Assembly (NCBI GenBank): GCA_031763025.1
Contig: JASSKH010000025.1
Coordinates: forward strand, 682,001-746,000
DNA: 64,000 nt
Reading direction: 5' to 3'
Source of the DNA: Macrocystis pyrifera
Lineage: Eukaryota; Sar; Phaeophyceae; Laminariales; Laminariaceae
In this document: positions 11,346 through 62,399 of the stretch, piece after piece
Layout of the letters: each line of letters starts with the position of its first letter
Numbering within the stretch: position 1 is the stretch's first letter
The notes under the pieces: generated by a model
Told to the model about the DNA's origin: nothing
The model's input: only the letters and a program-made list of their open reading frames with translations
The model's database searches: none
Program-made: the position numbers and the translations under genes

Positions 11346-11744
11346 GGTCAGAATTATGGGGAGCGTGATTTTCGATGGGGGTTGGGCATGGCACATAGAT
11401 GCGTGGAATGTAGGACATCCTCGGACTTCTGTAAATTTCGGAGACAATGATATACCGCAAAACGAAAGTGAGGTATAATGCAGGTCATGACGGAGAACAC
11501 ACTGCAATGAAGATGTACACTGATACCAGGTACATGATAGGCAGCGGCGCCTTGAAGGTAGGTCTGGTCCTGGAGGGGGGGGGGAAAACGGGAAAATGAT
11601 CGTGTGTAAGACATATAGAGGCCACACAACTACGAATTCCGTAGTTTAAGCCGTTCGACAGCAGGGTTAGGGCGCAGCAGCACTATCGACGTGACAATGT
11701 TGTTGCGCGCGTTACGTTATTCTTCTCGCAGTTTATAGTAGACG
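11346..11744. other. unassigned sequence after LINE1
   Basis: Possibly remnant LINE 3' UTR. No recognisable feature. Confidence 0.35.
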
Positions 11745-12060
11745 AGACCCAGCATGTTGGCTAGAAGAAGGGATAACGTACTGACTACAACAGTACCTCG
11801 TACCCGTGTCGCGCGTGTGATATGATAACACACGCCCTGGAAAAGTATTTCCGAGCCGATTTTCTCCAAAACAGGCCTCGAGGGGAGGGCCCACAACGAA
11901 AACGGCGCCTTGGGAAGACCTCATTGACGTTTTCCATGGACACGGTCGGTTATCGTATTCAGTACGCCCTCCTCGTTGTCGAGAAAAATCAGCTAGGCAA
12001 ATCGGCCGAGGGGGGGGTGTTGCCTTCTCAGCCAGTGCTGTCACTCAGTATCTCGTATAT
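11745..12060 (+). repeat. dispersed family RF3, copy 1
   Basis: Shares GTGATATGATAACACAC, TTTTCTCCAAAACAGGCC, CACAACGAAAACGG and GTTGTCGAGAAA with copies near 26.8, 39.1 and 53.5 kb. Non-coding. This copy is the empty site for the MITE at 26833. Confidence 0.6.
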
Positions 12061-12889
12061 ACCAGGGTAGGCTATTGTTACGGGGGGGGCTGTATAATAA
12101 TCAGAACCCACAACATGGAACCAACCCCCCCCCCCCCCGCCCCAATGCTTACATACCATATCTGGTTATATATAATATCATTTGTACGCTGCCGGCCCTC
12201 TCACGAAGAACCTGAAACCGGCCTGAGGCTAATTTTCTTATTCCGGGCGCGTGCGAAAGCGCACTTGCTTACGTTGCGCGTTCTTATTCTGGTTCCCGAG
12301 AAGACGTTACGTTAGTGCACAGAAAAAATGGTGTCTTGTGGGCCCAGGTAGGCCTCGGGAAGGGGTCAACTTTCTTGAAGCTTAGGCACAGACTATTAAT
12401 AGGCTGAGAGCTTGTTTAACCTTTCTATTTTTTCCGGGCTCATTTTCTTTTGAGTTAATTGCTTTCTGATGATCGGGCAGGAGGACCTGCTGTGTATGCT
12501 TCCCCGTAATCACCGTAGGTCACCCCTTTTAACACGAAACGGCAGCCCGGGCTGTCTCGCGTGGTCGTTGCCAATGTCGTCATTCTCTTTCGTCGCAATA
12601 GTACAGCAGCAGCAGCAGTACCGGTATGATAGGTGCCAGGTGTCAGGTGCCTGGTGCGCAGTGAGGATTTTTGGGGACGGCTTTCGCGCCTTTTGCATCA
12701 TATGTATAGGAAAAGCGCGGGACTCGATTGCTCGGATGGGTTGCAACCCTGTTACATATTACAATATACCAGGTGTGCACTTACTTGCTGCTGTGCTGTT
12801 CTTACACATGCAACATGTCTTGGATGGATGGCAAAAATCTTATTCTGTGGGCTGCAATGTGCACTTACTTCTGTGCTGTTTGCATTGCT
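12061..12889. other. unassigned sequence
   Basis: G and C homopolymer runs at 12080 and 12126. Nothing else recognised. The Cys- and Tyr-rich frames grade into the TAC array and are not credible genes. Confidence 0.4.
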
Positions 12890-13239
12890 ATTACTACTAC
12901 TGCTGTGCACTACTACTAGTAACTACTAGTAACTACTACTAACTATTACCACTACTACTGCTACTGCTGCTACTAATACTGCTACCACTACGACTACTAC
13001 TACTGCTACTACTACGACTGGTACCACTACGACTACTACTTACTACTGCTACTACTACCACTACGACTACTACTGCTACTACTACTACTACTACTACTAC
13101 TACTATCACTACTACTACTACGACTACTACTACGACTACTACTGCTACTACGACCACTACTACTGCTACTACTACTACTGCTACTACTACGACTACTACT
13201 AACTACTACTAACTACTACCACTACGACTACTACTACTG

Positions 13240-13306
<67 letters not shown>

Positions 13307-13355
13307 CACTACTACCACTACTACTGCTACTACTGCTGCTGCTACTACTACTACT
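12890..13355 (+). repeat. (TAC)n microsatellite, ~465 bp
   Basis: Nearly continuous TAC/CTA triplets with scattered TGC, CGA and CCA variants. The Val- or Ser-rich minus-strand frame is a repeat translation. Confidence 0.95.
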
Positions 13356-13576
13356 GTACCAGGTAGTGCGCACATACTTCGTTATGGGGTGGTGTCTTCA
13401 TCGGATTTAAGGGGCTCGTACAGAGACTACTGCCGCCGTATGTGACCGACGGCCGATTGTACGAGTATGAGTATCATATGGAGTAGTATGTATCTGGCAC
13501 TGCAGCAAAGTGCGGCGGTACGAATACGCGGCCGCACCACGTTATGAGCCAAATACTGTTGGTAAAAAATAATTGC

Positions 13577-14273
13577 TCGGGGACACCGAGTGGTGGGGTA
13601 ACCTTGTGGACGTCTATATGCAATGCATGCGCGGTGCGTGGTGAATGCAGCCAGGCGAGGCGGGGCGCAGGCGCCGCTGCTCTGCGGCGCTAGGGGATGC
13701 ATAGCTTGTCATGGAAGATGGGAAGCACTAGAAGCGGCAGTTCAGGCAGACCCCAGACTGAGCGTTACGGCAGCGGGACTCGGAGGGAGACCTGACGACC
13801 ACGAGGATGGGCGCCGGGATGGACTCCTCTATCCCTGGGACCAAAATACGTTTGGATCGCAAGACCACTCGACGATGTTCCCCTTGAGGACCTCCAACAA
13901 CGTTTGGTCACTGTTATTAAAGTGCAATCGAGGTTGGCTACAACCCACGCCAAGCTTGTCACCCACGTGCTTGGCCTCCTTAACCACGCCCTGGGAGAGC
14001 ATCGCCCACACAGACAGTAGGAGACGCCGACCTCACGCTTGCGGTCAATCAAGCTTTGGTACATCCTCCTGGCTCTACTGCACTCGCAGGATGGCCGAGT
14101 GAAGCGGCGCGAGAGGTTCGCGTCTGCCCAACACGGTGATCTCACCGTTCTACTCCCGTGGTTACTGGAGTATACCCGTCGAACATCGACAAGACAGAGA
14201 GTTCAAGCTCGCGAAGTGACGGATGCTGACTTGTTCAAGAGGGCGTCTTCAGCATGCCGCCATCCAGGGGGGG
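13577..14273 (+). pseudogene. LINE2 N-terminal part
   Basis: From 13862 one frame reads RPLDDVPLEDLQQRLVTV, HAKLVTHVLGLLNHALG, then a TAG stop at 14018, then in the same frame SIKLWYILLALLHSQDGRVK, LTVLLPWLLEY and FKRASSACRHPGG. The frame runs into the PCE insertion at the glycine codons and resumes on the other side at VTAAARSLLAEPRAPG. The part before 13862 matches the LINE1 5' block and has no long frame. The segment appears helical, of unknown function. Confidence 0.6.
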
Positions 14274-19235: not shown

Positions 19236-20425
19236 GTGCCAGCATCCCCTTAAGAACGGAGTCGTGTGGTGTGGGTGGATGACAAGCCCCTCCCTGCCTT
19301 GCTTGCTTCGTATTATTGTCTGACGCCGAAGGCGGGCGGGGCATAATTGACGAACGCAGGACGAAGACAGCAGGGCATAGCAAGGTCCCACAGGCGGACT
19401 AGTAGGGAGAAAACCCGGCTATGCTACTCGTACCACAAACTATTAATGAAACTGCTGCGACTACCTAGAGGATGCTTTGTGCTTCGGTTTACCTGTTATT
19501 TTCCCTTGGTCCTTACCCGCTCACTCTGTAGTAAGTATTAATAGTAGTAAGTTTGTGTTTTTAGTGGTGTTATTTCTTTAGCTCGTTCTTTTTCAAGTGT
19601 CTGTCATCACATCCCCTGTGCGGGGAGGCACTGCGGTTTTTTTTTTTTTTTTTTTTTTTTTCGTTTTTCGTTTTCGATTTGTTTTCGATTTGTTTTCTTT
19701 GTTTTTGTTCTTCTTTGTTTTCTTTCGCTTTCATAGAATGTTTATATGTTTGTCGCGCCCGTGTGGGGCGGAGCCCCGGGCAGGTTATCTCTTATGTGGT
19801 TGAGGTGTGGAGGACACACCGAGGTGGGTTGGTGTCTCGAGTCTTAACGGAACGGGGTGAGTCACCTATGTTGACCTTGAACTTGTGTGTAATGAGGCGG
19901 TACAATCTAGGGGAAGGGGACCTGGTATATTATATTATATCCACATCACCCCCCTCTTTTTTGAGACGTGCCACTGCGCGTCTTAAACAAAAGGTGTCGA
20001 CTTGGGGAAACAGGGCGACTAGGTTAACTTCCTAGATGTGCGACATTAATACCACACATGATTACCATTTATCGACCAACAATCTTGTCAACATTGCAAA
20101 CTCGTGTTGAAAAACACGTACCAGGTATGAGAACACGTAAATACTGGGATAATAATGGGTCTATGCGCAATACGATGTACTTCGTATTAACATCATTTGG
20201 AGCCAGGGTGACGCTATGTATACAGCTATCACCTATGTTTGTGGCCAGTATGATGACCTGGGCATTGCTTTGTTGCGTTGTCTACTCTGTGCTTACTACA
20301 TATCTGGTACGTAACGATGTACTGTTACATGTATATCTCTGTGTGGCGTAGTTTTGAGACCACACAACTTGTATCTCTCTAGGATTGAAGAATTGGAACG
20401 GTTTCGTGCTAGATGTCGACGGGTA
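19236..20425 (+). repeat. dispersed element U, copy A (no SINE)
   Basis: Shares with the 30.66-kb unit GTCGTGTGG, GTGGATGACRAGCC, GACGAACGCAGGACG, CTACTCGTACSACAAAC, GAGGRTGCTTTGTGCTT, then a T-rich block and TGTCGACGGGTAGAAA at its end. In this copy U is continuous where the 30.9-kb copy carries a SINE. A ~480-bp stretch (19760-20240) differs from the other copies. Confidence 0.6.
19633..19665 (+). repeat. poly-T run in element U
   Basis: Homopolymer of about 30 T inside copy A. Confidence 0.9.
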
Positions 20426-20639: not shown

Positions 20640-21408
20640 AGAGATCGTAAAAAAAGAGAGAAAACTACTGCAGCAGTTGTAAATTAATGAATACCAGGTA
20701 GTACTTTGTACAGCAATTGCCCCACCGCGAGTTGAATCGTAATACCCCGTAATAATTATCGTATTAAAAATAGTTACTCCATGCAATATGATATGGACTA
20801 CTTTTAATACTATTATTCATTATACTGCTGTACCTTATGGTACGCCGTGAACCAGAAAGCAGAGTCCGAGGATCGAGGAGCACCTGAAGGAGGAGCAGTC
20901 TTTGAACTGGAACTGGAACCACCGCCGTAAACCAGAACGGATGGATGTGATACGAGTACAGCAGTACGTGAAAGATTTCGGGGACAACATGCTCTGGGAC
21001 ATTGTATACTATAATAAATAATAATGATATAATACACGAACGGCATTTTATTTCATTCTGCTACATGGTTCTTCTTCTTCTTTTTCCTGCTACGAAGTAC
21101 ATGCTTCTGCTCTGATGCTGCTGCTGCTGCCGTCGCATAAACGGGGGCTGCTTCTGCTCCTGCTGTGCTGCTCATGTTCTTCTGCTGCTCTTTGTCATAT
21201 TCTGCTCCTGCTTCCGTTCTGCTGCAGCTGCAGCAGCTGCTGCTGTTTTTGTTATTATTATGCTGATATCTGAATCTATAAGACTTACGTTGGTACGGTA
21301 AAATGCGGGATATTTAACTTTTTTAAAGCCCGCCCCGTATAATTTTGTTTGCTTGTTTTATTACACCAGTATAGTACGTACTTTTAATATTCAATACCAG
21401 GTATTTTT
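20640..21408. other. unassigned, CTG-rich in the second half
   Basis: 21060-21260 is rich in GCTGCTGCTG and TTCTGCT. Contains TACCAGGTA at 20692 and 21395. No gene. Confidence 0.4.
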
Positions 21409-21585: not shown

Positions 21586-21874
21586 CCAAATATTTCGATT
21601 TTTTTTTTATAAAATATTAAAACTGGTACGTCACTATACGTAGATCGCACGCGGATATATGCACGTCTGCACGTCCTATCATACGTCCTACTACTGCTGC
21701 TGATCATAAATATAAGGTATACTATACGATACCTGTATGTTCTTGAAAATGAAACATGTACGTATGTATGGTATACCTGGTACCTTATGTTACCGTCCAA
21801 TCTGATACGAAAAATGTGAGGAAGTCGCAAATTCATACACAGGTACGTCGTATATCATGATGTCATATTATATA

Positions 21875-22490: not shown

Positions 22491-25047
22491 CTTTTTCTTG
22501 GTGCGTGTGGCGTTTTGTTTCAATTTTTTTTTTGATTTTATTCGTTTTCAATTTTCAACCTTTCCGTCGTTCCGCTTTTCCGCTTTCGGACAGGCCTGTT
22601 GCCTCCACTACTGCTACGCTCTGATACTACTGCTGTCACTCAACATCTTTCGTCTTTTTGGCGTCACGCGTAGTTCCTGCCGGAGGACTCTTTTCTTCGA
22701 AAAACCTTCCTGTGCAGGCAAACTCTCCCGCGCTAGCTACTCCAGAGAACGTTTGCACGGGTGCTTGCTGTCTGCTGTGCTTGCTGGCTGTGCACGAAGT
22801 CGGGGAACTTTGCGATACTTGGAGAAGTACGTGTCAAACAGCAAGCTTGGGTGATCATACCATCATCTACTCGAGTCTGTGTGATGACAGACACAACAGA
22901 CGATGCCCGAGATGGCCCAGGCACGACGAACGAAGTTCCTGACAGCTCGCCGGTGAGAGGAGATGCTACGAGGACCAGTTGGCATGGGGACGGGGGGGGT
23001 CGCGGGCGAGCTATAGGGGTATCGGTAGCGCTGCGGTGGTGCTGTTTGATGCTGTTGTTAGCCTTTTTTCGTCATGCATGGTTTGCAGCTCGTTTTTGAT
23101 AAAGGAATAGAATGGGCTTCTACTGTACAGGTAGTTATCCGCCGCCAGTTCTGCTTGGCTCACAGGCGTTCCAAGCTGCAAGTCTTCTTTTCCCGACGAA
23201 ACTCTTGAACAGGAGCCGAGATGCATGCTTGCAGCAGCATCTGTTTTTGCTGCTGCTGCTGCTGCTGCGTGCGGTTCCGCACAGCGTTGCTCTGCCATAG
23301 ACCTGTCGCACCGTACGGCACCGTACCGCACTGCTGTGAATTGATCAACTGCTGCTGCAGCAGCGCCGCGGGGCAGCAAACTAAAAGAAAGCACGAAAAG
23401 AAAAACCGTTTTGGATCGAGTCGAGAGAGAGAATCAATTGGCTACCATTTCATTTGCAGTTTTGTGAACCATTTGGCGCCCATTTGTTTGTCCTGATACA
23501 TGGATAATCGTATGGATAATCGTATCACTTATCTGTTATAAACGCACTATTAATAGGTGTGCTCGTCCCTATTACATATTACACGTATGTACACCAATAC
23601 ACCAAATTCGTACGTACGGCGTAAGGAAACACCGCCGTTAAAATACCCGACCATTTGTCTTTTTTTAACTTTTTTTTTTTGTCTACTCCAGGCCCCCAAC
23701 CAGACCTCTCCAAAAGCGCCTTTCGCCTTTTGAGACGCCAACACACAGCTCAGCTGTACGTACGGGATATTAATATAGTATTAATAGTGACTTCTTCGAG
23801 CTGATGATCATGAGAGGCGATTTAGAACCATCGGCGGAGTGGCAGTATGACCGTATGGTATTCCCGGCTTGGCCGAGCGCGCTCACCAACTGATGGGCCA
23901 CACAGACAGCAGTAGTATCAGTAGTCGCCTTCACGTGTGGTACCGCTGCCCCCCGCCAGCTGTTATATACCTGGTATGCTTTCAATGGGAAGACGCACCC
24001 TATGAACGCGAGTACGAAATCATACGTGGAGCTACTGCTGTGTACGACTTACGATTGGAATTGTTTTTTTTTCAATTGCACCCGCAGCGCGAGGCGATAC
24101 AAAAAGGAGTAAAAAACGCGAAGAATGCTGTGATCATTGGAAATATTTCTGTTCGTTCAATTCAAGTCACAAGTTTCCCCCGCCCCCCCCTGCCAAGGAT
24201 ACCTGTGGTAAGTAAAACATACATGAAATAATCATGGAAAATGAAGAAATTCAGGACCTTCGACTCGATCCCCATACTATGCCAGGCGAAAACAAAACTA
24301 CCCCCCCCCACCCCTCCCCTTCCCCCCCCGCCCTCCGTCGCCCAACCCCCCGACTCTCTTATGTAGTTTCTCAGCTACAGCCAAGAGCTATTGGATATAT
24401 ACGTAGTACTAGTACGGTATTGTACTTGATAGTTTTACAAACCACGTACGTATTGATACTCGTACGTAGTCTATTATTAATAGTCATTTTGCTCATCATA
24501 CGTAGGTACGAAGTCCAAGCGAACGAAGGCTTGAACAATTGAAACCCAACTTGTGATATTACGCCAACCTATTGAGCAACCTTGCCCTCGTTCATTAGTA
24601 CCTGGTACATAGTATCAGTATGTCAACGTTCATCCTGCACCAGTTGAGGTTTAGGGTACCCAGCGCTCGCCGCTGAGAACGATTTCTCAACCCCAATTTC
24701 TTCCGCAGCGACTCCATAAAACCGAGCCTGGTATGCGATACCTGGTACAGCTTATCTGTTCTCACTCATTTGTGGGACGATACACATTCAGGTACAGGTA
24801 TAAAAGTACCAGGTATATATATCTTCAAGTATAACAGTAGTGTACCCCCCAGATCGTTCGTGCGCTCCTGAAAATGACGTTTTGATACAATATATGAACA
24901 ATATGATGGCCCGCCTGGCCTGTCTGTGGTATGAACTGTTGTAACCATGAGTGACCTTCAGTAGGAACCCTAGACGTAAAGGTGGACACACTACTTGGAA
25001 TTAGTCTAGGGATGGTAATTTTTTCCGCCGTTGAAGAGTAGCACTTT
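22491..25047. other. unassigned, with a weak coding candidate
   Basis: Holds GCTGCTGCTGCTGCTGCT (23253) and CTGCTGCTGCAGCAG (23350), C runs (24180, 24300-24350) and several TACCWGGTA and TATTAATA motifs. A frame at 22761-23099 reads VRVKQQAWVIIPSSTRVCVM and TDTTDDARDGPGTTNEVPD with a hydrophobic end. It has no splice or promoter support and I do not recognise it. Confidence 0.35.
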
Positions 25048-25879
25048 ACACCCCTCTAATAGCTGGTTAGTGCGAACTTAACGGAACGCTCTTCACGGTA
25101 TATGATATACCAGGTACAATATGACTTGTTGTTGGATTTTTTCCGAACATGATGAAAGTTATATAGTTGTACTTGAGTATGCAGCAGCTGTTCTTCACGT
25201 TGAACCAGCCTAGGTAGGATCAGATCACTATTAATGTTAAACAAATACAAAAACTACAGCAGTAAGTACATACCAGGTACCCTTTACTTGGCACGCGCCA
25301 TCGAAGTACAGCAGCAGTACCTGGTGTGTTCCACAGGACTTCGGTACCGTTTTGCAGTTTGGGGAGAAACCCCTCACAGCTCAGCTAGCTCACTCTCACA
25401 GCTCAAACTTTTGAGTACCTGTCTCCAAAACCGGACTACAGCAGCGAAAGGGTTGAGCAGCTTGCCTAATATGAATTTCGAAAGACATTTTCGTTTTCGA
25501 TCTCACATATCACCACCGTTCGCAAAGAGCTTTGATATTACACAGGACAGAGCAGGGGTGATGCGATCGTCTTTTCGGCGCTCGATTTTCCCAGAACTAG
25601 GAGAAGGTTGCCAAATAACGAGTAAATACGGAACAAGGGAGGCGTTTTTGGAAAGGTCTGGTCGAGAGCCTTTTCGAAAAGATTATGTTCGACTTTCAGC
25701 ACCGGACCGTTGTCCAGACAACAAGCTCGGAAAAATGATCACACCCCTCTAATAACTGGTTAGTCAGCGAACTTAACGCAACGCTCTTCACGGTATATGA
25801 TATATCAGGTACAGCAGTATGACTTTTCGTTGGGTTATTTGCGAACATGATGAAAGTTATATAATTGTACTTGAGTATG
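25048..25879 (+). repeat. unit with ~135-bp terminal direct repeats
   Basis: 25048-25184 and 25741-25879 are near-identical (ACACCCCTCTAATARCTGG, ACGCTCTTCACGGTATATGA, AACATGATGAAAGTTATATA). Direct terminal repeats around ~560 bp of non-coding DNA resemble a miniature LTR-type element, but the ends are not TG..CA and no primer-binding site was seen. A segmental duplication is equally possible. Confidence 0.45.
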
Positions 25880-26009
25880 TATCTCCTTTGTGCGTCCAAA
25901 CAGGACAGATATGATTGGAGTCGTCCTTGTTTTTGAGTGTTTTTTTGTTTTTGTTTTTTGTTTTAGTCATCATTGTCACTTTCCACCTTAACTCGTATTA
26001 ATAGGAGTT

Positions 26010-30657: not shown

Positions 30658-31625
30658 TAAGCCCCATTAAAGGAGTCGTGTGGCGTGGGTGGATGACGAG
30701 CCTGCTTTGCTTGTTTCGTATTGTCTGACGCCGAGGGGCGGGGCATAGTGGACGAACGCAGGACGGAGACGGCAGACAGGGTACCAAGGTACCAGGCGGA
30801 CTAGCAGGGAGAACCTGGCTACACGTATGCTACTCGTACGACAAACTGCTGCCGCTACCTAGAGGGTGCTTTGTGCTTTGGTTTGCCGTTTATTTTCTCT
30901 TGGTTCTTAGTCTTACTCTGTTCACAAGGAGTGCCGGCGTCCCCGGTGGCTTGGTAGGTGGTCCGCGTGCCTGTCAAGATCAATTTCGTGGGTTCGAGTC
31001 TCACCGAGTGCATACTCATGGGGACTTTTTCTTGCATAAAAATTGATAAGCGGAAAGCGCGAAAGCGTGAGTTGGCTACATTCGATGAAAATCGACCAGC
31101 AGGGGGAATGCTGAACCCTATGCGCGACAAAAAATGAAGGCACGTACCGGGGGGGAGAGGGGACGACACCTGTGACCACGGCTTGTCCAGAAGATCGTCG
31201 AGGGTAAAACCTCCTACAAGTGGGCTGTAAAAGTGAAAGTGATGGAAGAGGAAGAAAAAAAAGTGGTGTTTTCTTTTTTTCGTTTTATTCCAGCTCATTA
31301 TTTTCAAATGTCTGCCACATGCCCTGCGGGGGGGGGCGCGACAGTTTGTTTCTTCTATTTATTTATTTTTCTCTTTCGATTTGTCTTCTTTGTTTTTTTT
31401 TTTTTTCTTTGTTTTCTTTCGTTTTTCTATTTCATAGAAGGGGTGAATCGTGCCAGTCGTATCCAGTGTAATATGGCGTTGCATTGTCCTGTGTGCTTAC
31501 TGGATACGTAACTTGGAATATCTCTTCTGTGACCAACAGAACTTGTATCTTTTCTATTACTAATAATAGGAATGAAGAATCGGCACAGACACTGGTTGTG
31601 CTGGATGTCGACGGGTGGAAAGAAG
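30658..31625 (+). repeat. element U, copy B, left palindrome arm
   Basis: Same order as copy A (19.2 kb), split by a SINE after CTTACTCTGTTCACAAGG. Ends at ATGTCGACGGGTGGAAAGAA. Confidence 0.65.
30934..31262 (+). mobile_element. tRNA-derived SINE, copy 2
   Basis: The head begins GGCGTCCCCGG. TGGCTTGGTAGG fits a pol III A box and GGGTTCGAGTCTCACC contains the B box, with tRNA spacing. CTGTCAA at the anticodon-loop position suggests a tRNA-Asp-like ancestor. The body has GATAAGCGGAAAGCGCGAAA, TTCGATGAAAATCGAC, CCCTATGCGCGACA and GTGACCACGGCTTGTCC, and ends in GTGATGG plus an A-rich tail. ~330 bp. Four copies occur in the window. Non-coding; mobilised in trans, perhaps by a LINE not seen here. 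Confidence 0.88.
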
Positions 31626-31794: not shown

Positions 31795-32935
31795 TTCTTT
31801 CTACCCGTCGACATCCAGCAAGCACAACCAGTGTCCGTGCTGATGCTTCAATCTCGTTATTTATAATAGAGAGTACAAGTTCTGTGGTCACAAAACTACG
31901 CCACACGACGGGTAGAAAGAATACTGCTGTAGCACACACAGAGAGATACTGTAGTACGTTGTTATGCAGTAAGCAGAATAGACAATAATACAAGGCAATG
32001 TTCATGCCACCGTAGTTGGATCCGGCAGGCACGGCACGCACGTTCTATGAAACAGAGAAAACAAAAGAGACTATTAGTATTTTTAGTAGCAGTCAAAACA
32101 AAAACAGCAAACAGAGCAAACAAATCGAAAGAGAACAACGAAAAAAAAATGTCGTGCCTCCACGCAGGGGATGTGGCAGACGCTTCACCTTGAAAAGAAA
32201 AGAACGAGCTAAAGAAATGGCACCACTACGGTACACTACATGTCATATGATAGGCCGGTGTCCCCGGTGGCTTTAAGCTTGGTAGGTGGTCCGCGTGCCT
32301 GTCAAGATCAATTTCGTGGGTTCAAGTCCCACCGAGTGCATGCTCATAGGGACTTTTTCTTGCATAAAAAATTGATAAGCGGAAAGCGCGAAAGCGTGAG
32401 TTGGCTACATTCGATGAAAATCGACGAGCAGTGGGAATGCTGAACCCTATGCGCGACATAAAATAAAGGCACGTACCGGGGGGGAGAAGGGACACGACAC
32501 CTGTGACCACGGCTTGTCCAGAAGATCGTCGAGGGTAAAACCTCCTACGAGTGGGCTGGGAAGTAAAAGTGATGGATAAAATAAATATATATATATATTA
32601 TGATACCAGCCGAGGTACAGCAGAGTAAGACTTGTAGAAACCAAGAGAAATGTCGAAATAACAGGCAAACCCTCCAGGTAGCCGCGGCAGTTTGTGGTAC
32701 GAGTACTCGTAGCATACTATATAGATAACCAGCTTTTCCCCTATGTACTACGTTTTAATAGTCGGTCTGGTCCCTAGAGTACCTTGCCACCCTCCCTGAC
32801 TGCCGTCTCCGTCCTGCGTGCGTCAACTATGCCCCACCCCCCGAGAGGTTGCGTCAGACAGTACGAAACAAGCAAAGCAGGCTCGTCATCCACCCACGCC
32901 ACTACTAATAGAGTCCTTTCATAAGGACAAAAAGA
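31795..32935 (-). repeat. element U, copy C, right palindrome arm
   Basis: Reverse copy of U: CCCGTCGACATCCAGC, TTCTATGAAACAGAGAAAAC, GGCACGACA complement, then after the SINE CAGTTTGTGGTACGAG, TCCGTCCTGCGTGCGTC and GGCTCGTCATCCACCC. A ~95-bp segment (32710-32800) differs from copy B. Confidence 0.65.
32253..32598 (+). mobile_element. tRNA-derived SINE, copy 3
   Basis: Full copy with A and B boxes (TGGCTTTAAGCTTGGTAGG, slightly expanded; GGGTTCAAGTCCCACC) and an AT-rich tail (TGGATAAAATAAATATATAT). Sits in the right palindrome arm in the same orientation as copy 2. Confidence 0.88.
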
Positions 32936-33398: not shown

Positions 33399-33516
33399 TA
33401 TCACGGGGGGGCCATAGTAAATAGGACCAAATATTTTTAGTAAAGATAGGGAAATATATATTTTTTTGTTTGTATCGTAGGTCCTGCCTGGTATTTACTA
33501 TGGTCCCCCCTTAATA
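33399..33516 (+). mobile_element. MITE-1 copy 3, with a TGCCTGGTA insert
   Basis: Longer than the others because GTCCTATTTAC of the family reads GTCC-TGCCTGG-TATTTAC (insert ending at 33493). Left end is degraded (TATCACGGGG). Confidence 0.88.
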
Positions 33517-33872: not shown

Positions 33873-34970
33873 CCTGGCATGTTTTTACGAAACAACAACA
33901 ACACGACCAGCAACGACAGCAGCCACAAGCTGCAAGGAATCGTTGACAGCCGTTCGGGGCATGGTTGGTTGTCCCAGCGCAGCAGCGAGCAGCGAGCAGC
34001 AAGCAGTGCATGAAAGCATGAACCCGCTCTGAACATGTGCGGTACGATAGTACTGGTACGCACAGCCAGCAGCAGAAGCAACAGCAAGGAGCGAAACAGC
34101 AGTGTCACAGGTGAACGGCCGCCGATGTCCTCCCAACTATTATATCGTCCCTACTACTGTACTGTACGAGTATCCATCAATACATTCGTATAATCGTATA
34201 ATGCCGTTTCAAAGCAGCGGCATGATATATTGATAATATCAGTATTAATATTAATAGTAGTTTTCATCAGTATTAATAGTGTTAGCGTTAAGTGTGGCGT
34301 TTGACCAGTACGTACGTATATACCAGTCTGTACCCTAAATATAAAGAAATTTTGCGTTCTAACTTGCAATAAAAATGCTCGTTCTATCTAGGGACACAGC
34401 AGTGGGTGCAGCAACAATATACTGGTGGTACGCAGCAACACAGGCGGACTAAGAATGAACTCACCCACCAACACCTACACCCACCAGCCAGCCAGCCACC
34501 CACACACCCCCCCACCAACCCATCCAGCCACCACCCCACTCACCCACCATCAACCTAACTACCCGCCCACGAACCCACGCACTCACCCACTCACCCCACA
34601 CCCCCCCCCCAAAAAAAAAACAGCCAAATGAAACAAACCAAGCGGGCAGACAAGCTCGGATTTGGAGCCCACACTCCTGCTGCCCTCCAGAGTCGAGAGC
34701 TCTGCGGCTGACCCCGAAAAGAAAGATACGGGATTATTTGCCAGACCCAAAATAAAGATATACCTGGTACCTGGTGCGGCGGGAGGGAGGGAGGGAGGGA
34801 GGGAGGGAGGGAGGGAGGGAGGAGGGCACCTTGGAGAGAAGAAGGACAGGCACCAGTGACCACAAGACTAGCGTTTCCTCTCCCTCTCTTCCTCTCTTCC
34901 CCCGTTGTTCATATTAATACCAGACACCAGGTAGTTCATTTGTGCCGAATAACTTTTGAAGTTACGTAGC
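33873..34970. other. unassigned, CAG-rich then C-rich
   Basis: CAGCAG-rich at 33950-34100, CACCCACC-rich pyrimidine stretch 34445-34610, A run at 34610-34620. No gene. Confidence 0.4.
34778..34823 (+). repeat. (GGGA)n microsatellite
   Basis: GGGAGGGAGGGAGGGA repeated about eleven times. Confidence 0.95.
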
Positions 34971-35369: not shown

Positions 35370-36702
35370 TTCTAGCTGTTAGAACTGCCACCACCAATGT
35401 TGGACAACGAGCCACCAATGTTGGACAACGAGAGAGACGAGCAAAGTACCTCAAGAGCGTTGAGCTAAGTTCGCACAGCATCAGCGGTGCGATCGTTTTA
35501 TCAGCCGCTTGTTTTCTCGACCGCGGTGAGTGAGGGTGGTAAAGTCGAGCGTTACACGCAACGTTACCCGGAACGTTCGGCGGAAGGTTCTCGATCAGAT
35601 CTTTCCGAAAAGCAGGTTTAATGATGGGTCGGGTGTTGCCGGCCTTAATTAACCTTCCCGTTCTGAAAAAAAAAAAACGTCCGCTGAAAAACGATCGATC
35701 GCACGCAGAGCAGCCCTTCCCTGCGTGCGAACTCGACGCTCGGTAGCCTCTAAAAACGTGATATGTGTGACATGGAGAAGTTCACCACAGCAGCAGCACA
35801 GCAGTAGTACGCTATCGACCACCTATCCGTCCCTAAATAATAGGAACGCTTTGATTGATTATTAGTATAGAAGCGGTCCTAATATTTGGAGACATGATGG
35901 TAAACCCTCTCGGGAAATTCATGAGAGGAGCGAGCATTGACGACAAACAGAATGTGCTTGTTGCAGCAACGGCCGCAGCTCCTATTAATACTGCTGTGTC
36001 ATTGACGGGTGACGATGCAAGTTTGGTGTCCGAGTTTACAATTGGTTGATGATTGCCAAGCAGGAGTCCTACCGACATGACTGCTGCACGGCGCGGGCGC
36101 ATCCTGATCTGCTACTGCTGTAATACTGCTGCTGCTGTTCCCTCACGCTTTTCTCTATATAGCCCCAATTCATAGACGGTTTGGTAAGACCAACCATCGA
36201 TTCATTGTTTTTTGCCGCTAATCCTCAAAGAAGCCACTACAATACCGTTATTACAGTAAATAGTACCATCAACCAGGCACCTACCTGGTATGCTGTAGCA
36301 AGAAAACGATCGCTGATTCCTAGGAGATAGACGGTGGCCACAAAAGGCGAAACAAGGCAGGGATCAAGTATAAACCTGCACAATGTTTTGTGAATTATAC
36401 GAAAAAATGTTGTGAGCGCCGAATTTTGTCTCTCATGGCGAGAATGTATATATACTGGTACATATATATACCTGGTTACGTACGGATGGTGGCCACAACA
36501 AGCGAAACAAGACAGGGATCAAATGTAAAGCAACACAGCTTTGCATGTAATATACCTGGTACGAAAGTATAGGTTGTGAGTGCCGAGATGTTGAAGGTGT
36601 CTCTAGAGTAGTGACGGTGCTCCGTCTCGAGAGGGGCAAGCGGTCATTGCCCAAATTGCTCAAGGTTAGCAACCAATGAGCACCCCACACATATTTTGGG
36701 AA
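35370..36702. other. unassigned sequence
   Basis: Two tandem CACCAATGTTGGACAACGAG units (35391-35430), scattered TACCTGGTA (36292, 36553). No gene recognised. Confidence 0.4.
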
Positions 36703-40230: not shown

Positions 40231-40437
40231 GTGGTCCTGGAAAAAAACATCCTACCTGGTACAGTACTGCTGTAGGTAGTAAGGTGGTTGTGTATGCTGT
40301 ACGACCGATGGTAGTTGCAGGGTTGAGGAGGTCATCCGGTCTGAAAAGATTGCCTCAGAAGGCAAGAAGGGCGACCGCTTCCGTTGGATGAGTCCTTACG
40401 CTGCTTTGATAGGCTGCTTGCTGCCTTAGCGGGCTGC

Positions 40438-40826: not shown

Positions 40827-41696
40827 ACTCGCGGTACCTGATGTGCAACGGAAAGAGAAGTACGAGATGGCGTCTGTTATGTTTGTGGTCCTTCCATGGT
40901 GCCGCCTTGCGCCAGCCCACAGCACCGGCACTAGTAGTAGCGGCAGCCGATACTACTATACTACTATTAATACTCCGGATGCTGTCACGCTGGTCTATCC
41001 GATTCGTGCCAATCGGTTTTCACAGACGCTTGGAAAGCGGGCAACCCGGCGCTGCTCAACGGGCACTCTAGCTATATACCTGGCAGGCACGACTGATGTA
41101 CTTGTGTCGCTGCCTTTGAAGGCATGCCTATTGTTCGGGAGCACAGAAGTCATGATCAAATATGCTTTTACTGTAGGGCAAAAACGGGAATATGTGCTGT
41201 ACCAGGTAGGTTTTTGTGTGTATGATTGGTTCTGATTGCTACGGAAAGGCACGAGAAAGCACGGCCGCAGGCAGCATGATGGCGATTGTATTGAACACAC
41301 GCTGTTCCTTTAGGGCATGCTTGCCTTGAAGGAGCAGCGGAAGGTGGTGACAGTGGTTAGGGTAGTACATGCCGCACTTGAGGCACCGTGTGTCGCGGGC
41401 AGCCGGCGCTACTCAGGCATGACTTCGAGAAAAACCACTGCGTGCTGTTGTACTCGTATCGACGCACGCCTTTCCTTTCGCTCGTCCTCTAGGACCGTAG
41501 TTTTCTGGGTGGAATTTACTTCAAAATTTGAGTACAGTATTGTTTTTTTGTCTACGGTGCAGCTACGAAGCTGTAGTGAGGTCAAGAAGGCATGCCTAGA
41601 AGGCAGGGTACGAAGCGCAACATCGGAAAAAGTACGACACGCTCTTCCTCTAGAAGCCCTCCTGGCACTGCAATTGCGTTGTGAGGACAAAATACT
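40827..41696. other. unassigned sequence
   Basis: Protein-like frames exist but none has a domain or splice support. A faint MITE-1-like block (GGTAGGTTTTTGTGTGTATG) is at 41205. Confidence 0.35.
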
Positions 41697-42178: not shown

Positions 42179-42937
42179 CCGCCGCGAACAGCTCGGTCGA
42201 CACTACGTACCAGGTAGTAATAATCTTGTAGCACATTTTCACATGTATTATTTTCAATGGTAGTTATTAATAGCTACTGCTGCTGTTGCTGCGCTTCCAA
42301 GACATGTACTAAATAGTAGGTTACTTGGAGTTCCAGCCGGCGCACGTGTAATCTAGAAGAAACGTTTGGGAGGCAACAGCAATGAAAAAACTACTTGGCG
42401 GAGTTTTGAAGCAAGTCCTATCGTTTTAAGTCTCATAAACGGTCTACGTATTAAGAGCACGTGCAAAGGTCGTCAAACCTCGTGCTGCTGCATACACACT
42501 TATTCCCATTTTTTTTGTGCACAAATAATCAAGTAATTCAATTGCTTCGGAAGACCTCGATAGGGACCTCGATAAGACCTGGATAGGTAGGGTAAATAAT
42601 GCTATCGTAATCACGCTACGCACGACTTGCCCGCAGCGCAAGCTCGCAAGAACCCCAAGCCTCCTGCCGGAAGAGCGGCAGAGAAGTTTTTCAGCTTCAG
42701 AAATGATTTAATCGCGAAGCCCGGCTAACCCAGTCGTATGTCGTATCCCCCGGCTTTGACTTTGGGCGAACGTACGAACGTACGGCCCCCATCTTTCGTC
42801 TATTAACGACGGTATGCTCCGTGTTCTTTCCACGAAACGCGAACAGCTCAACCGATTTTCTTTCAAAAACCACTCGGTCCCGAAGTATAAACCCGTTTAT
42901 ACATGAATGGTTATCTTTCTGTTCAAGGGTGGTAGTC
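42179..42937. other. unassigned sequence
   Basis: AT/GC-mixed, no gene or repeat recognised apart from TACCAGGTA at 42208 and TATTAATA near 42264. Confidence 0.4.
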
Positions 42938-43427
42938 ATCACTCTGTCCCAGAATGTAAGTACCGGTTTTATACCAATATTCAGTCAAATTGTTCATTAT
43001 ATTTTGGGACAAGGTGGTAGTAGGGTGGTAGGGTAGTACACTGTTTTGGCCTGAAATATAAGGTACATTTGATGTTAGTTTCAGAGTCCGAACGGTTCTT
43101 ATAATTCGAGACACAGTGGTACCACCACATATCCCGAATTGTAAGGACCGTTTGTATGAAATGTGAAAACACAAACGGTCCTTACAAGTCGGGCCAGCGG
43201 TTACTATATCGCACCACTGTGTCCGAATTATAAGAACCGTTTGTGTATTTATATTCAATACAAACGATCCTTACAATTGGGGACAGCGGTGGTTAGAGTA
43301 ATACCACTGAGTCTCGAATTATAAGAACCGTTTGGGTCTTCATATTTCCACACAAACAGTCCTTACATTCCGGGACAGCGGTTTGTGTAACCCCGGCCGG
43401 AGTGGTAGTGGTACCAATGTGTCCCGA
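42938..43427. mobile_element. SWL hairpin MITE cluster, about five units
   Basis: Units of ~85-100 bp begin TACCAC(T)STGTCCCGAATT followed by RTAAGRACCGTTTG, and end in the complement (AAACGGTCCTTACAATT then CGGGACAGCGGTGGTTA). Units start near 42938, 43039, 43120, 43212 and 43301. The termini resemble Stowaway-type MITEs (GTCCCANAATATAAG) of the Tc1/mariner superfamily. TA flanks are visible at several ends. The head-to-tail packing, each unit nearly abutting the next, is unusual. Confidence 0.75.
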
Positions 43428-44164: not shown

Positions 44165-44262
44165 TTACCACACTGGGCGGAAATTTAAGGACCGTTTAGA
44201 CATGGAGATTGATACCAAGCGTTCCTTATGATTTCGGCCAGAGTGTCTTTAAATTTAGGCAC
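44165..44262 (+). mobile_element. SWL hairpin MITE
   Basis: TTACCACACTGGGCGGAAAT, TAAGGACCGTTTAG ... CGTTCCTTATGATTTC, GGCCAGAGTG. Confidence 0.65.
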
Positions 44263-44929
44263 CACAAATACGAAGTATTCCAATAATGGCTTATGTTAGA
44301 GCGAGAACGTAAGGATGGTCGGACTCTTGTTCACGGGACCTTGCACGAGGCCGAATAGCATCTGACCCTTTGGTGGACCTCGGACCTCTCATGTATATAC
44401 GAGGAGGTGCTAGCTGTTGGTAGCACCTCGTCCATCAATGGAATTGAAGTGTGCCCGTTTAGCCACTGACAATGCTTCATCCAATTGACGACGTGCCCCA
44501 TGTTTCATGCGACAACCGCGAGCAGCTCGAACGTTCTATGGTTTTGGGGCGTCATACCAGGTACGCCATGAGAAGACCACTGAGCTTGACATGCAGCGCG
44601 CCCGCCCAGTTGACGACATGCTCTCGCTCTCCGCTCCGTGTTCATGCGACGGCGGCGAACAGCTCGAATGTTCTATGGTTTTGGATGTCGTACGAGTATG
44701 CCATAAAATTACCACTGAGCTATCAGGCAGCGAGCGCCCTTTTGAGGACTTGCCCCCCTCCATGTTCATGCGACGACGTCGAACAGGTCGAATGGTACAT
44801 ACCACCCTGGTACTCCTACCCCTGGTATTGCACATCCTCGGTCAAATGAGAATAGATCATCATATTTGATCATTCTCACAGTTCATGATCTAGACCTGTC
44901 TGGGCAGATGTTGTCTTCCTGATTTTTAT
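44263..44929. other. unassigned, with a threefold ~115-bp repeat
   Basis: CATGCGACRACSNCGAACAG followed by CTCGAAYGTTCTATGG occurs three times (44505, 44640, 44766), each after CGACGTGCCCC/GACTTGCCC-like text. No gene is supported. Confidence 0.45.
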
Positions 44930-48081: not shown

Positions 48082-48608
48082 GCATGATGTTCAATAGTGT
48101 AATTTTTAGTCCTGGGTTTTAGTGTTTCGGTAAAAAACTGGGACAGCAGTAGCAGTACACGATATTTATCCTACTGCCGCATGAGTAGTGCAGCTGTGAT
48201 GTGGGCACGCTATTAGCAGACTGATACGACTGATACGACTGATACCAGGTATGTTGTTACACCTGATACGTGGCTTTCGAGCTGTTTGGGTTTTTTTTTT
48301 TTTTTGTTGGGATGTTTCGTCGTATACATTGCAGGCCTGGCATATTTCGTATATCATATCGTACATACCTGGTCAAGAATTTGGCTCTGCGGCTTCGTTC
48401 TGCCAGTGACACGTAAGTACTTGTATCACTTTATCGCCACCAAAAAATAATATGCTCTCGGTCTGTTGAGCACGAGCAGCTTTTTCATACAGCAGAGAGT
48501 CTGCGTGCGGGTGATGACGAGAGATTACATCATACGAGCTACTATTAATATTAATACGTATGAACGTATGAACAGCAGTTGTGATTACCACGACAGCAAG
48601 CTAGCTAT

Positions 48609-48716: not shown

Positions 48717-48868
48717 CATTAATAATATGAATAAATAGCGGCACTGCCCCTCCCGTGTACTATGTTTGTGTGCTGCCACCGTTTATATATATATATATAT
48801 ATAAATGCGATACATATTTATATACCAGGTATATTTTTTCGTAAAGGTGAACCCTTTTAGTCTAATGG

Positions 48869-49301: not shown

Positions 49302-50197
49302 CTCCCCCTCCTCTCGCTGTTTTCGATTATCTCGGCCCGGGGTGTGTGGCTAGTTGTTACCGGTGTGATAGTCGTCACCAGTGTGATATATACGGGAGTC
49401 GATGCTGAACGTAGAGGTTCGTTCGCATACCGTGGCGCAGGTCGACCGCGGCAGTGATGATGCTGGTCACGATGATTGCCCTGATGATTGATGATGTGCT
49501 GGTAATGTTGTTGCTGCTGTTGCTGTTATCACATTATTGAGAGTAGTGTGATGGTGATGTCTAACTTTTTTTCTTTTTCTTTTCCCCTGGACCCCATGTC
49601 CGTACGTAGCACCCCCCCCCCCCCGTCCGTCCGTCCATGGTCACAACTTCATGAGATTTGCTTAGCAGCTACCTGTCATCGGCTTCACTCACCTTCATTT
49701 TGTTAGCCTCAGCCAACGGCGCCTACCACTGCTACTATCACTCCTCCTCCTCCTCTACTACTACTACTACCACTACGACTACGACTACCCTAAGAATAGT
49801 GGCCCAGCTGCGCCTGATCGGGCTCAGGCAACTGCGTCTCATCAGGCTCAGTCAGCTGCATCTGCTAGTGGTGCAGGGCGAGGCCACACCTTATGAAGGA
49901 TTATGAGATTTACGAGTACCTAAGGGCCACGGTTACTACTACCAACAGTCCGGTTCTGCCCGATTGGGCGAGTGTGAAGAGAGCGTGGGTGAGTCTCTGG
50001 CCTGTGGAGACAGTCTACACTATGGATAAAGCCGCCTGCCGGCCGTGCCTTGCTTTCGTATGGTCATGGTTGACATTGTCCATATATTGTCTCCACTTGT
50101 CGAGACCCTTGCCTAAGCGAGTATGAGAGCCAAGACGATTGCTGTTCCGATTGAGGTACGATATTTCATACCTGGTATTAATAGTGGTTGTTATTCA
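49302..50197. other. unassigned, triplet-rich
   Basis: GATGATG/TGTTGCTGCTG stretch near 49480-49530, C run 49612-49625, CTACTACTACTAC at 49757. No gene recognised. Confidence 0.4.
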
Positions 50198-50277
50198 TAC
50201 CACTGTCTCGTAACACAGTGACCTTTACGTTGTAGTATGAATATACAGCCGGTCATTACATTTCGGAACGGAGTCCT
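50198..50277 (+). mobile_element. SWL hairpin MITE, diverged
   Basis: ATACCACTGTCTCGTAACAC...GGTCATTACATTTCGGAACG and GAGT. Confidence 0.55.
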
Positions 50278-55900: not shown

Positions 55901-56080
55901 TATCTACTACTGTACAACATATCGCGGTCGTCCAACGTCGTACATACATACCTGGTACGTGGACTATTTTCGTTTTCATATTTTTTTTTTTTTTTTTTTT
56001 TTTTTCGGCACTGGACTATTCATGCGCATCGTGAGTGCCAATCAATCCTCCTAACATGACCCCGCCCAAGAAATAGTAGA

Positions 56081-56251: not shown

Positions 56252-56463
56252 CCCCCCGCCGCCGCCCCCTCCTCTTAAGAAACAGAAAAATAGAGTTTGT
56301 CGTATTCAGTGGTAATGTATACGTTATACCAGGTAACATTTCTTGGTGTTGATGGTATTCATTCGTATGCAGTGCCAGGTTTGCCACATTGGGGGGAAGG
56401 GGAAAGCTGAAAACAATTTATTTGACCACCGAGCCGATTCGGCACACCAGGCACGAACCCAGA

Positions 56464-59163: not shown

Positions 59164-59232
59164 GGGGGTAACGGTGTTATGAAGGGTCGGACCAGTCGGA
59201 ACGGTGTTATGAAGGGTCGGACCAGTCGGACT
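59164..59232 (+). repeat. 30-bp unit, two copies
   Basis: AACGGTGTTATGAAGGGTCG followed by GACCAGTCGG, twice exactly. Confidence 0.9.
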
Positions 59233-59338
59233 CCGCACCTCTCTTGTTGTACCAGCCACCACTACTACAGTACGTACTGCTGGGAGTTCTGTGTAGCACC
59301 TCGGAGACATCGTCCGCCATGGCGGACGTTTCAGGTAC

Positions 59339-59447
59339 TATTACGGGGGTCCATAGTTAATAGGACATATGGTATACATAAAAACCTATATATTTGCCTA
59401 TTTTCACTAACAATATTTGGTCCTATTTACTATGGTCCCCCGTAATA
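59339..59447 (-). mobile_element. MITE-1 copy 22
   Basis: TATTACGGGGGTCCATAGTT...TACTATGGTCCCCCGTAATA. Confidence 0.93.
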
Positions 59448-59621
59448 CTAAGATGATTAATACGAAGTCCTGGTCTGTACCTGGTATGTACGTCCCGAGA
59501 GCACTCCGTTGCTTGTTCCCAAGGGAGGATGAGGAGTGTTGGCTCATATGCTACTGACAGTGTGGTTGTTTTTTGAGGATTTACCTACGTGGTAGCCGTT
59601 GTCTGGTCTGGTCGATTGCCC

Positions 59622-59729
59622 AGGTGGGTCTAGTAAGTGGAATGCAGCGCACGTGACGGTGCTGGCAGCTGGCGAGACTGTTGGATGTGTAGAGAACACG
59701 CGAGCTGACAAATGCTTCCTTCTGCGATT
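59622..59729 (+). CDS. possible short exon
   Basis: After GATTGCCCAG a 36-codon stretch reads VGLVSGMQRT in one frame and GGSSKWNAAHVTVLAAGETV then GCVENTRADKCFLLRL in another, ending near TTAGTACGTG. The second frame is protein-like. Splice borders are weak and the family is not recognised. Confidence 0.15.
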
Positions 59730-59817
59730 AGTACGTGTTATTTATAATAGTAGCCCGCACTTCTATTATAACGAGTATGTTACGCCTACACACCGGCACC
59801 AATCGCAGGCCTACATT

Positions 59818-59840
59818 CTTGTTGCTGTTGCTGCTGTTGC

Positions 59841-59874
<34 letters not shown>

Positions 59875-59880
59875 GCTGTT
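59818..59880 (+). repeat. (GTT)n microsatellite
   Basis: GTTGCTGTTGCTGCTGTTGC then TTGTTGTTG repeated. Confidence 0.93.
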
Positions 59881-60877
59881 CTCACATTAACCACTCTTCC
59901 ATGAAGCAGTCTGTGGTCAGTTACGCAACAAGGCAAAGGTGCTGGACCCCTAGGAAGATCCGAAAACCCCATGATAAAAAAGGAATTGGCGGGGAAGCAC
60001 GACGCTTTCCCACCTAAAAAATACACGAGCTCTGCGAGGACGAAGAAGGCGAACACAAAATGAAATCAGTGCGCAAACTGAACTGACATGACCGCGGGTA
60101 TCCCCCCAACTGCAGCATATAGAGTCCCCTCCGTTCCCACAACCAACCAACTCGTGATTTGTTGACTACACCGGTTGCTGTCTGGAGGGCTGCCTGCACC
60201 GTACGAAACGCACGGTATGATAGTCGTGAAGATATTGAGGAACACGCCTGGCTGCTGTCTGGGGTGCTGTCACAGTGACGACTCGCGGGCATGCAGTAAA
60301 AAAAAGAGCAATCGAACCAAAAACTACCATCCAAACATGAACGATCGTCATGTCTTTTCGGACTTTCTGACCAAAGGTAGGTGCAGCACAGCTATGATAC
60401 CACGTCCCTGATAATTGCGGGGGTCATTCCCCATGAGGGGTATACAACTCGCCAACACTACAAAAGACCAGTGACGTACCGGTAAAATAAGAGGGACATA
60501 TTGCTGCCTCGTGAAGAAAAAAATCACAAAGAGAAAATCGGCTCGCTCCTTTGCGCGTGCTCTCGTTGCCACTCCCTTCCAGTCGGTCCCCCCTTCTCCC
60601 CCGTCCCGAAAACAAAATGGTCCTTGCACTCACTTGCTGTTCTGATCTGATAAAACATTTTTTCTCGCGCAGGTATGTATACTGGTGTGTATACCTATAT
60701 CATACATTGTAATTACATGCCGAAACCTATGACGGCTATTGTTGATAATAGTGTTGCATATCGTATCGAAAGTTTCGATATTATTTCGAACTATGATATC
60801 GATATTGTATTGAAACATTAAAAGCACTCTGCACCAAACTTGAGGGTCGTTGGCATGCACTATTTATATTATATTAA
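59881..60877. other. unassigned sequence
   Basis: No gene recognised. The last 140 bp hold the second CGATATTGTATTG cluster. Confidence 0.4.
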
Positions 60878-60986
60878 TATTACGGGGGTCCATAGTTAAT
60901 AGGACCTATGGTATACATAAAAACCTATATATTTACCTATTTTTACGAACAATATTTGGTCCTATTTACTGTGGTCCCCCGCAATA
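60878..60986 (-). mobile_element. MITE-1 copy 23, right-most
   Basis: TATTACGGGGGTCCATAGTT...TACTGTGGTCCCCCGCAATA. Preceded directly by ATATTAA, so TATTAATATTACGGGGG looks like an element next to an older scar. Confidence 0.93.
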
Positions 60987-62399
60987 GTTATTAATGGTGA
61001 AGTTTTGGTACATTTTCAAACATATCTCTTCGCACGAGCGCTTTTTTGGCGAAACGCTAAGTAGTCAGCACGGGAAGCCCGGCCGGGCACGTTGATCCAG
61101 GTCTGGGCGCGATCCGTGCACTCTGGTGCGCGTGGCATGCCCTCAAACGTTTTTTTTCCGGCAGCATTGGCTGAGACGATTTCCCTGGTTTCAGTACGAG
61201 GTGCCTTATTTTGTACGTACGTATCGGTAAAATGTTGTCTGTTTTCTCCCCTGGGCCCTCATGAGCTATGAGCACACAGCTCAGACACGTACCAGGTACA
61301 CAACAGACAACATGCACAAATCCCATATTTCCAACGCTGCCGCCCACACGCGGTGCGTGTGCGACACACCCATATGCACAGTATTGCTGTGGCTGGTTGT
61401 GTTTGTCGGAGCCTGCCGTCCGTATTCCACCGTCTGCCAGATTGTGTTTCATACGCGTGTACCCAGGCTGACGTATATTCATCCACATTTTTTTGTGTGT
61501 TGTTGCACGCGGAGCACGGACGGTCGCCCAGACAACAATAGCAACAGTGCACAGAGCGTGCTTACCTCTAGCCTCTACAGCACCACAACCCTGCTGCCCA
61601 GCAGCAGCAGCAGTGGGCGCACCTTGCGCGTATGGACGATCGTACTGCGGCTATCAAAGTTGATCGTCGGAGAGTTCGATCGATCGCATGACCATGCCAC
61701 GACCACACCATCATCACCTCTCTCCCTGCTGCTCGTCGAGTCGAGTACAACAAATCGTTCGTACAAGTATCGTGTACAGCAACACTCGTACATTACATAC
61801 TTTCAGTTACTGGCTGCTGTGTGTCCTACCCTGCTGACCGATAGATCTTAGAGCCGGCTGAAAGGGCATCAGTACACGTTCCTTTGTCGCAGTACCCGTA
61901 TCTTCTGCTGTCGTATCATATCACATGGCATTTTACAGCAGTACTGCTGTACATGCAGTCGCACATGTACAAGCTACTCTACTGTAGGAGATCCTGCTAC
62001 GTGTTTTAGATTGCGTAAAAAACACAACGTGCCAGTTGTGCGAACCCTGCTCTAGAAAAACAGAACCGTAGATGTCACACGGCGCTTGATAAAATTTTCG
62101 TTGCCGAGGTTCAACTCGCACCATCCGCTTCTTTTCTTTTTCACCTTTGACTTTTTTTGTTCCAGTACGTCCACCTTGCTTTTCTGAGCGTACTAGTAAT
62201 TGGTGGCAATAAGGCGCGACCTTAGTAATATGTGCAGTAGTGATATCTACGAATCATCATGCTGCGCGAATACGGAGTATTCTGTATTGCGCTGAACCAA
62301 CACGAACGAACATCTACGTACGTACGCGGTCGTATGTATGTCAGTGACCACGTTGTGACGTCTGGGTTCATTATTTTTTACAAACAAAAAATGTGCTTC
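60987..62399. other. unassigned; long frame not supported
   Basis: A 196-codon frame at 61261-61851 is Ser/Thr/Cys-rich, contains a TACCAGGTA scar motif in its reading frame and CAGCAGCAG repeats. No domain seen. Confidence 0.35.

Follow-up and report, generated by a model that had tools for sequence, protein, structure and literature searches.

The window analysed here is a stretch of 64,000 nucleotides from the kelp Macrocystis pyrifera (positions 682,001 to 746,000 of contig JASSKH010000025.1), and the question it raises is why one nine-base palindrome, TACC(A/T)GGTA (TACCWGGTA), recurs in it so often. An earlier note on this DNA had proposed that the word is a scar of SWL, a family whose ends it gave as TA-CCA...TGG-TA. 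Based on the evidence below, most TACCWGGTA words are very probably excision footprints (scars) of cut-and-paste transposons that target TA and end in CCA...TGG, namely the SWL miniature inverted-repeat transposable elements (MITEs) and siblings with the same ends.

The abundance of the word was determined at three scales. The window held 27 exact copies, the number given in the earlier note; 100 dinucleotide shuffles averaged 0.53 and never exceeded 3, in line with the roughly 0.5 that the note had expected by chance. A controlled count over the whole genome (537,376,219 bases, 223 contigs), which the note had recommended, gave 121,279 copies, and the word read backwards, used as the control, gave 2,421; TACCWGGTA is self-complementary, and its forward and reverse counts are accordingly equal. 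At a TA density of 0.0555 per base, an intact scar stands at approximately 0.41% of all genomic TA. In a local sample of 310,018 bases, 77 copies were found where an order-2 Markov model predicted 2.9. This sample was not random: it includes the window, two loci obtained by pattern search (L001 and L003, contributing 4 of the 77 sites) and one locus picked round a listed scar (L025), and the duplicates of the former two (L002 and L004, respectively) were excluded from the sample counts. When all 16 palindromic flank pairs around CCAGG/CCTGG were compared in the sample, TA alone was enriched (77), the other 15 occurring 0-4 times each with 1.6-4.9 expected.

Forms with one mismatch, counted without the centre position of the 9-mer, comprised 50 transitions (20.4 expected) and 47 transversions (40.3 expected) in the same sample, an excess of about 30 and about 7, respectively, beside about 74 intact scars. 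As a rough estimate from a simple model, this corresponds to an average change of about 6% per site. The transition bias fits neutral decay and not a maintained binding site. The 'many one-mismatch forms' of the earlier note are thus present in excess, but the excess is modest and consists chiefly of transitions.

Paralogous copies were compared. An all-against-all comparison of 260 kb of the sample produced 3,554 alignments, which were screened for clean 7-bp gaps. The locus L007:9253 reads TCTCGTC-TACCTGG-TATATTCC, and other copies of this repeat read TCTCGTC-TATATTCC, straight through the TA. At scar 25108 of the window, the word was present in both the site and its local duplicate. Two decayed scars, neither with an assigned strand, were revealed in the window by the same gap:

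2478..2486, decayed scar GACCTGGTA (GACCTGG), 7 bp longer than its paralogues TCTCGTC-TATATTCC (4 alignments)
33485..33493, decayed scar TGCCTGGTA (TGCCTGG) in a copy of a 112-bp MITE, the 7 bp being absent from the other sample copies (21 alignments)

One mark of an excision footprint is a doubled TA with short remnants of the two element ends in between, missing from empty paralogues, and these sites bear it.

The 112-bp MITE, TATTACGGGGGACCATAGTAAATAGGACC...GGTCCTATTTACTATGGTCCCCCGTAATA, is very abundant, with approximately 20 copies at 30047-60990 of the window, and one TA in its arms, GGTCC-TA-TTTACTATGG, was followed through the genome (the tested TA). The empty state, searched as an exact 17-mer, was found 27,181 times (control 0), inserts of 3-30 bases at this TA 511 times (control 8) and the exact scar 114 times (control 0). 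The net change is from TA to TACCWGGTA, or +7 bp. An insert of the same length but the wrong letters, GGWCC, was seen only twice, both times readable as a tandem duplication. The scar frequency, 114/27,181 or 0.42%, equals the genome-wide frequency per TA. The earlier note had predicted empty TA sites and had named their absence from relatives as grounds against its reading; they are present among paralogues, both for L007:9253 and, in this 27,181 to 114 proportion, at the tested TA. Right flanks were compared among twenty retrieved copies, 14 carrying the exact scar and 6 a variant join; no pair was more than 70% alike, and the copies therefore represent separate events.

Among 100 inserts listed of the 511, TACCAGG accounted for 22 and TACCTGG for 9, so that 31 were exactly TACCWGG. 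Others in this list were TACTGG (3), TACCGG (2), TACGAG (2) and TACCATGG, TACCCTGG, TACCAGGG and TATCTGG (1 each), and the remainder included tandem duplications and nested MITE pieces. The minority joins in the list, TACTGGTA (3), TACCGGTA (2), TACCATGGTA (1), TACCCTGGTA (1) and TACCAGGGTA (1), can be read as C, CC or CCA followed by GG or TGG, with a single additional base in two cases. Save for that base, the largest contribution of either side was CCA or TGG. Heterogeneous minority joins at a single site are a further mark of excision, and their composition, so read, is compatible with the footprint chemistry of the earlier note, in which three bases are kept on one side and two on the other.

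The same TA was also found occupied. The pattern TAGGTCCTACCACT, which places the left end of SWL at that TA, gave eight matches (control 1), seven of which were complete SWL elements of 78-80 bp between two TA (L049-L053, L055 and L056); L054 was not. These elements read TA-CCACTCTG...AGAGTGG-TA, and exhibit the TA target-site duplication and terminal inverted repeats that are features of Tc1/mariner (IS630) transposons. An intact element with matching ends thus stands, in other copies, at the target of the scar. Two of the seven, L053 and L056, retain the exact right flank used in the scar count, giving 114 scars to 2 occupied sites at matched flanks; the occupied count is a minimum since the search demanded CCACT.

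In the genome, at least 49 matches to a query from 43100-43320 of the window were obtained, and 20 SWL copies were fetched and aligned, the ends being read as TA-CCACTCTGTCCCGAAATATAAGGACCGTTTGT...AAACGGTCCTTATATTTCGGGACAGAGTGG-TA. The family is a MITE of about 79 bp, TA-CCACTCTG(T/A)CC...GG(A/T)CAGAGTGG-TA. The ends TA-CCA...TGG-TA of the earlier note hold for this family and for its seven complete copies at the scarred TA, with the correction that they continue as CCACTCTG(T/A)CC and not as CCACTGTG. A profile built from seven SWL copies gave 43 matches in the sample, many of which were the two strands of one palindromic copy. The copies in the window, with their nhmmer E values, are:

43213..43288, plus strand, SWL copy CCACTGTGTCC...GGACAGCGGTGG (family profile, E 4.9e-17, and alignment)
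43302..43380, plus strand, SWL copy (E 5.3e-13)
42938..43019, plus strand, SWL copy (E 5.3e-13)
43125..43199, minus strand, SWL copy (E 1.5e-12)
35822..35902, minus strand, SWL copy (E 1.8e-10)
44166..44245, plus strand, SWL copy (E 9.1e-10)
50198..50274, no strand assigned, SWL copy 20 bp from scar 50169 (E 4.2e-6)

Perfect ends of the form TACCACTCTGDCC occurred 2,886 times genome-wide against 32 in the control. Two of them, 945 bases apart on contig C129, flank a 941-bp element (C129:764501-765570, bases 65-1005) with 32-bp perfect inverted repeats that start CCACTCTGTCC and share their first 11 bp with the SWL ends. The element is non-coding, with no open reading frame above 100 amino acids; its left TA is also the right TA of a TACCAGGTA scar, and an SWL copy adjoins it. 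As the 941-bp element has the same ends, SWL is a member of a group of families with common ends. The earlier attribution of the scars to SWL is upheld in that SWL occupies the same TA, but SWL is not demonstrated to be their sole source.

The scars in the window are listed below, all without strand and on the basis of the exact pattern count. Of the positions given in the earlier note, 25 of 27 were exact, and two were 10 too high (36292 for 36282 and 48833 for 48823).

11524..11532, scar TACCAGGTA
13357..13365, scar TACCAGGTA sharing a TA with TACTGTA, a possible nested scar, at the edge of an ACT-rich tandem array
20119..20127, scar TACCAGGTA
20692..20700, scar TACCAGGTA
21395..21403, scar TACCAGGTA
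21774..21782, scar TACCTGGTA
23968..23976, scar TACCTGGTA
24599..24607, scar TACCTGGTA
24739..24747, scar TACCTGGTA
24807..24815, scar TACCAGGTA
25108..25116, scar TACCAGGTA; in the local duplicate at 25741-25879 the scar takes the form TATCAGGTA
25271..25279, scar TACCAGGTA
34761..34769, scar TACCTGGTA
36282..36290, scar TACCTGGTA
36553..36561, scar TACCTGGTA; its single paralogue in the sample is L008, at 70% identity
40024..40032, scar TACCTGGTA
40253..40261, scar TACCTGGTA sharing a TA with TACAGTA
41200..41208, scar TACCAGGTA
42208..42216, scar TACCAGGTA
44555..44563, scar TACCAGGTA
48243..48251, scar TACCAGGTA
48823..48831, scar TACCAGGTA
50169..50177, scar TACCTGGTA sharing a TA with TATTAATA
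55949..55957, scar TACCTGGTA
56327..56335, scar TACCAGGTA
59478..59486, scar TACCTGGTA
61290..61298, scar TACCAGGTA

The earlier note had remarked that none falls in the first 11 kb. The first 11.5 kb are indeed without exact sites, but this is not significant (Poisson 0.057), and the decayed scar at 2478 lies there. Scars sharing a TA with other scars were also seen in the sample. At L020:8196-8211 there is a double scar, TACCTGGTACCTGGTA, with one TA common to both.

The flanks of the scars carry a target preference of their own. They are mirror-symmetric about the TA (n=153 flanks), with A at position -6 at a frequency of 0.56 (0.26 for all TA), T at -1 at 0.05 (0.19 for all TA) and a T/A/A preference round -7, -8 and -3. 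The tested TA of the MITE matches this preference on its right side, and on its left side in one arm.

These observations suggest the following sequence of events. A transposase would cut the non-transferred strand 3 nt inside the element, a distance taken from the joins only, to leave ...TACCA-3' overhangs on both flanks. The flanks would then be joined by end joining with the two terminal A residues opposed and the gaps filled, and resolution of the A:A mismatch to A or T would yield TACC(A/T)GGTA. With one genome only, the excision of DNA transposons can seldom be seen; a footprint as uniform as that in kelp makes departures countable from sequence, so that assemblies allow one to measure how many scars there are per occupied site, the spectrum of end joining and how old the events are. 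Short insertions totalling about 0.85 Mb (121,279 x 7 bp) would stem from excision. It is doubtful, though conceivable, that SWL-type elements leave by a directed, near-uniform reaction, with a domesticated or still active transposase and a fixed end-joining partner, and are swept from the genome, perhaps at a set stage of the life cycle, as in programmed DNA elimination but with a fixed 7-bp mark. The frequency of departure in such a sweep would be that seen at the tested TA, where 114 scars face 2 occupied copies at identical flanks.

Known TA-targeting transposons provide partial parallels. The kelp ends, CCACTCTG, are unlike those of the plant Stowaway MITEs, CTCCCTCC. In Sleeping Beauty, a Tc1/mariner transposon, the A/T ambiguity of the footprint arises by an A:A mismatch. 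The Sleeping Beauty footprint is 3 bp, whereas that of kelp is 5 bp (CCWGG), with CCA overhangs that would overlap by one unpaired base. As outlined in parts of PMC8151067, Sleeping Beauty resembles the kelp proposal in its TA target, 3' overhangs produced by cleavage a few nucleotides inside, end-joining repair and a CAG footprint. For Stowaway MITEs and rice Osmar5 (plant Tc1/mariner), passages of PMC1925063 describe a TA target, short inverted-repeat elements and footprints of 1-4 bp of the element end by the TA, as in kelp; the Triticeae footprint TACTC...AGTA (3+2 bp) in the same passages may be compared with CCA+GG. The Stowaway cases there amount to a handful of footprints in one intron, whereas in kelp one dominant footprint occupies 121,279 places. 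Rice excisions were mostly untidy, with 8 of 94 perfect in the portion of PMC4423477 concerned. The zebrafish element ZB (Tc1/mariner) shares with kelp a palindromic AT-rich target preference and short footprints, but its footprints, in the sections of PMC7913693 that treat them, are zero to three base pairs, unlike the 5 bp of kelp. Among brown algae, Ectocarpus is described, in sections of PMC12477816, as having 17 Mariner-Tc1 families with almost 12,000 copies, mostly non-autonomous; the comparison is by description only, and the main text of that paper uses none of the words footprint, excision and MITE. In the open literature searched (titles and starts of abstracts), no description of such scars in kelp was found, and among the papers listed as containing the 9-mer none was by title on transposons or algae.

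Several observations weigh against the proposal. Footprints of Tc1/mariner elements are 2-4 bp according to parts of PMC7913693, shorter than the 5 bp in kelp. A search for the transposase, which the earlier note had advised, did not deliver one: the search, confined to the DDE_3 domain (PF13358), gave no matches, with only three candidates passing a first look, so that membership of these elements in Tc1/mariner is no more than putative. Among paralogues, L008 does not exhibit a clean 7-bp gap opposite scar 36553, and those of L023:8797 and L019:8852 were only loosely aligned. Eight of the 114 scars at the tested TA lie on small contigs that possibly repeat one another, and one of these was among the fetched copies. 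A second TA of the 112-bp MITE had 984 inserts (control 0), yet the 100 of them listed were led by TACATA (18), TACTGTA (7) and TACAGTA (6; TACWGTA 13 in all), followed by TACGTA (5) and TATTAATA (3), and contained TACCTGGTA only twice. This second TA fits the scar preference less well, a difference read after the fact. A site in another repeat had 6 inserts and no scars; the L007 scar is one base off the right flank of that pattern. Finally, the SWL flanks match the scar preference weakly (n=41), with A at -6 at 0.39, a purine at -1 at 0.71 and T at -1 at 0.17, where scars have 0.05.

The weak match of the SWL flanks implies that a sibling family could be the main source of the scars. The excision would be the same, and the source either another CCA-ended family, such as the clade that includes the 941-bp element, or an autonomous element of low copy number outside the sample. 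We regard this as possible, if on the unlikely side. Apart from the flanks, it is favoured by the 941-bp element itself, whose first 11 bp are those of SWL and whose inverted repeats are long and perfect, and by the SWL copies of the window, which are diverged while the scars are mostly intact. Seven of the eight elements at the tested TA were nevertheless SWL MITEs, in a search that required CCACT and to which other letters after CCA were invisible. A different cut, 5 nt inside ends that start CCAGG, would give overhangs able to pair as CC:GG and GG:CC on either side of an A:A mismatch, much as in the CAG footprint of Sleeping Beauty; four base pairs would then stabilise the junction, and both the symmetry and the choice of A or T at the centre would be accounted for. 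This appears improbable: no TA-flanked inverted-repeat family starting CCAGG was present among the listed output for the 260 kb, the listed TACCWGG words had no common continuation, 5-nt SWL overhangs (CCACT) would not pair, and the join TACCATGGTA (L059) corresponds to CCA/TGG ends joined in full (3+3). In the same 260 kb, TA-flanked inverted repeats starting CC formed no clear family among the listed output, and split alignment of the sample, aimed at whole elements, revealed none with CC ends, most of its results being nested or chance joins.

An exact palindrome that is 50-fold enriched and has symmetric flank preferences might also be a selected protein-binding site (for a transcription factor, an origin, an insulator or a nucleosome element). 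Such a site would be expected to show constraint on word and position; instead, the word is a clean insertion, polymorphic among otherwise matching repeat copies, its rate per TA is the same in the MITE as genome-wide, and its one-mismatch forms are mainly transitions. A binding function is accordingly very unlikely, and the enrichment of a palindrome does not by itself imply binding. Least probable of all is that the word is carried by a larger repeat or satellite, or reflects CCWGG methylation. Recent duplications do exist, L001/L002 and L003/L004 (contig C1) being identical over 509 bp, but the flanks of the scars are unrelated, and CCWGG without TA flanks is not enriched. The binding-site, satellite and methylation readings were rejected on the clean insertions, the unrelated flanks and the enrichment with TA only. 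Excision of CCA...TGG elements remains the preferred origin of the word.

Some further repeats and footprints were observed. The window segments 30949-31227 and 32277-32558 are repeat copies 92-96% alike in which the stretch GGTTCGAGTCTCACC is similar to a tRNA T-arm; they are perhaps a tRNA-derived short interspersed nuclear element. ARAGORN (tRNA) and Rfam searches of the window gave no matches, the tRNA-like repeat included in the case of ARAGORN. A second type of scar, a 6-bp insertion converting TA to TATTAATA relative to paralogues, was found at 25998 and 53115 (decayed) of the window and at L013:2525, L005:2513 and L020:5396, and TATTAATA occurred 89 times in the 310 kb sample against 1.9 expected. 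In the same sample TACWGTA occurred 129 times (48 expected) and TACGAGTA/TACTCGTA 44 times (10.4 expected). The TACATA, TACGTA and TACWGTA inserts at the second TA of the 112-bp MITE are as expected of elements ending CAG. At L010:103, a 6-bp insertion, TACGAG, is present at a TA and absent in 13 alignments, possibly representing a further footprint family.

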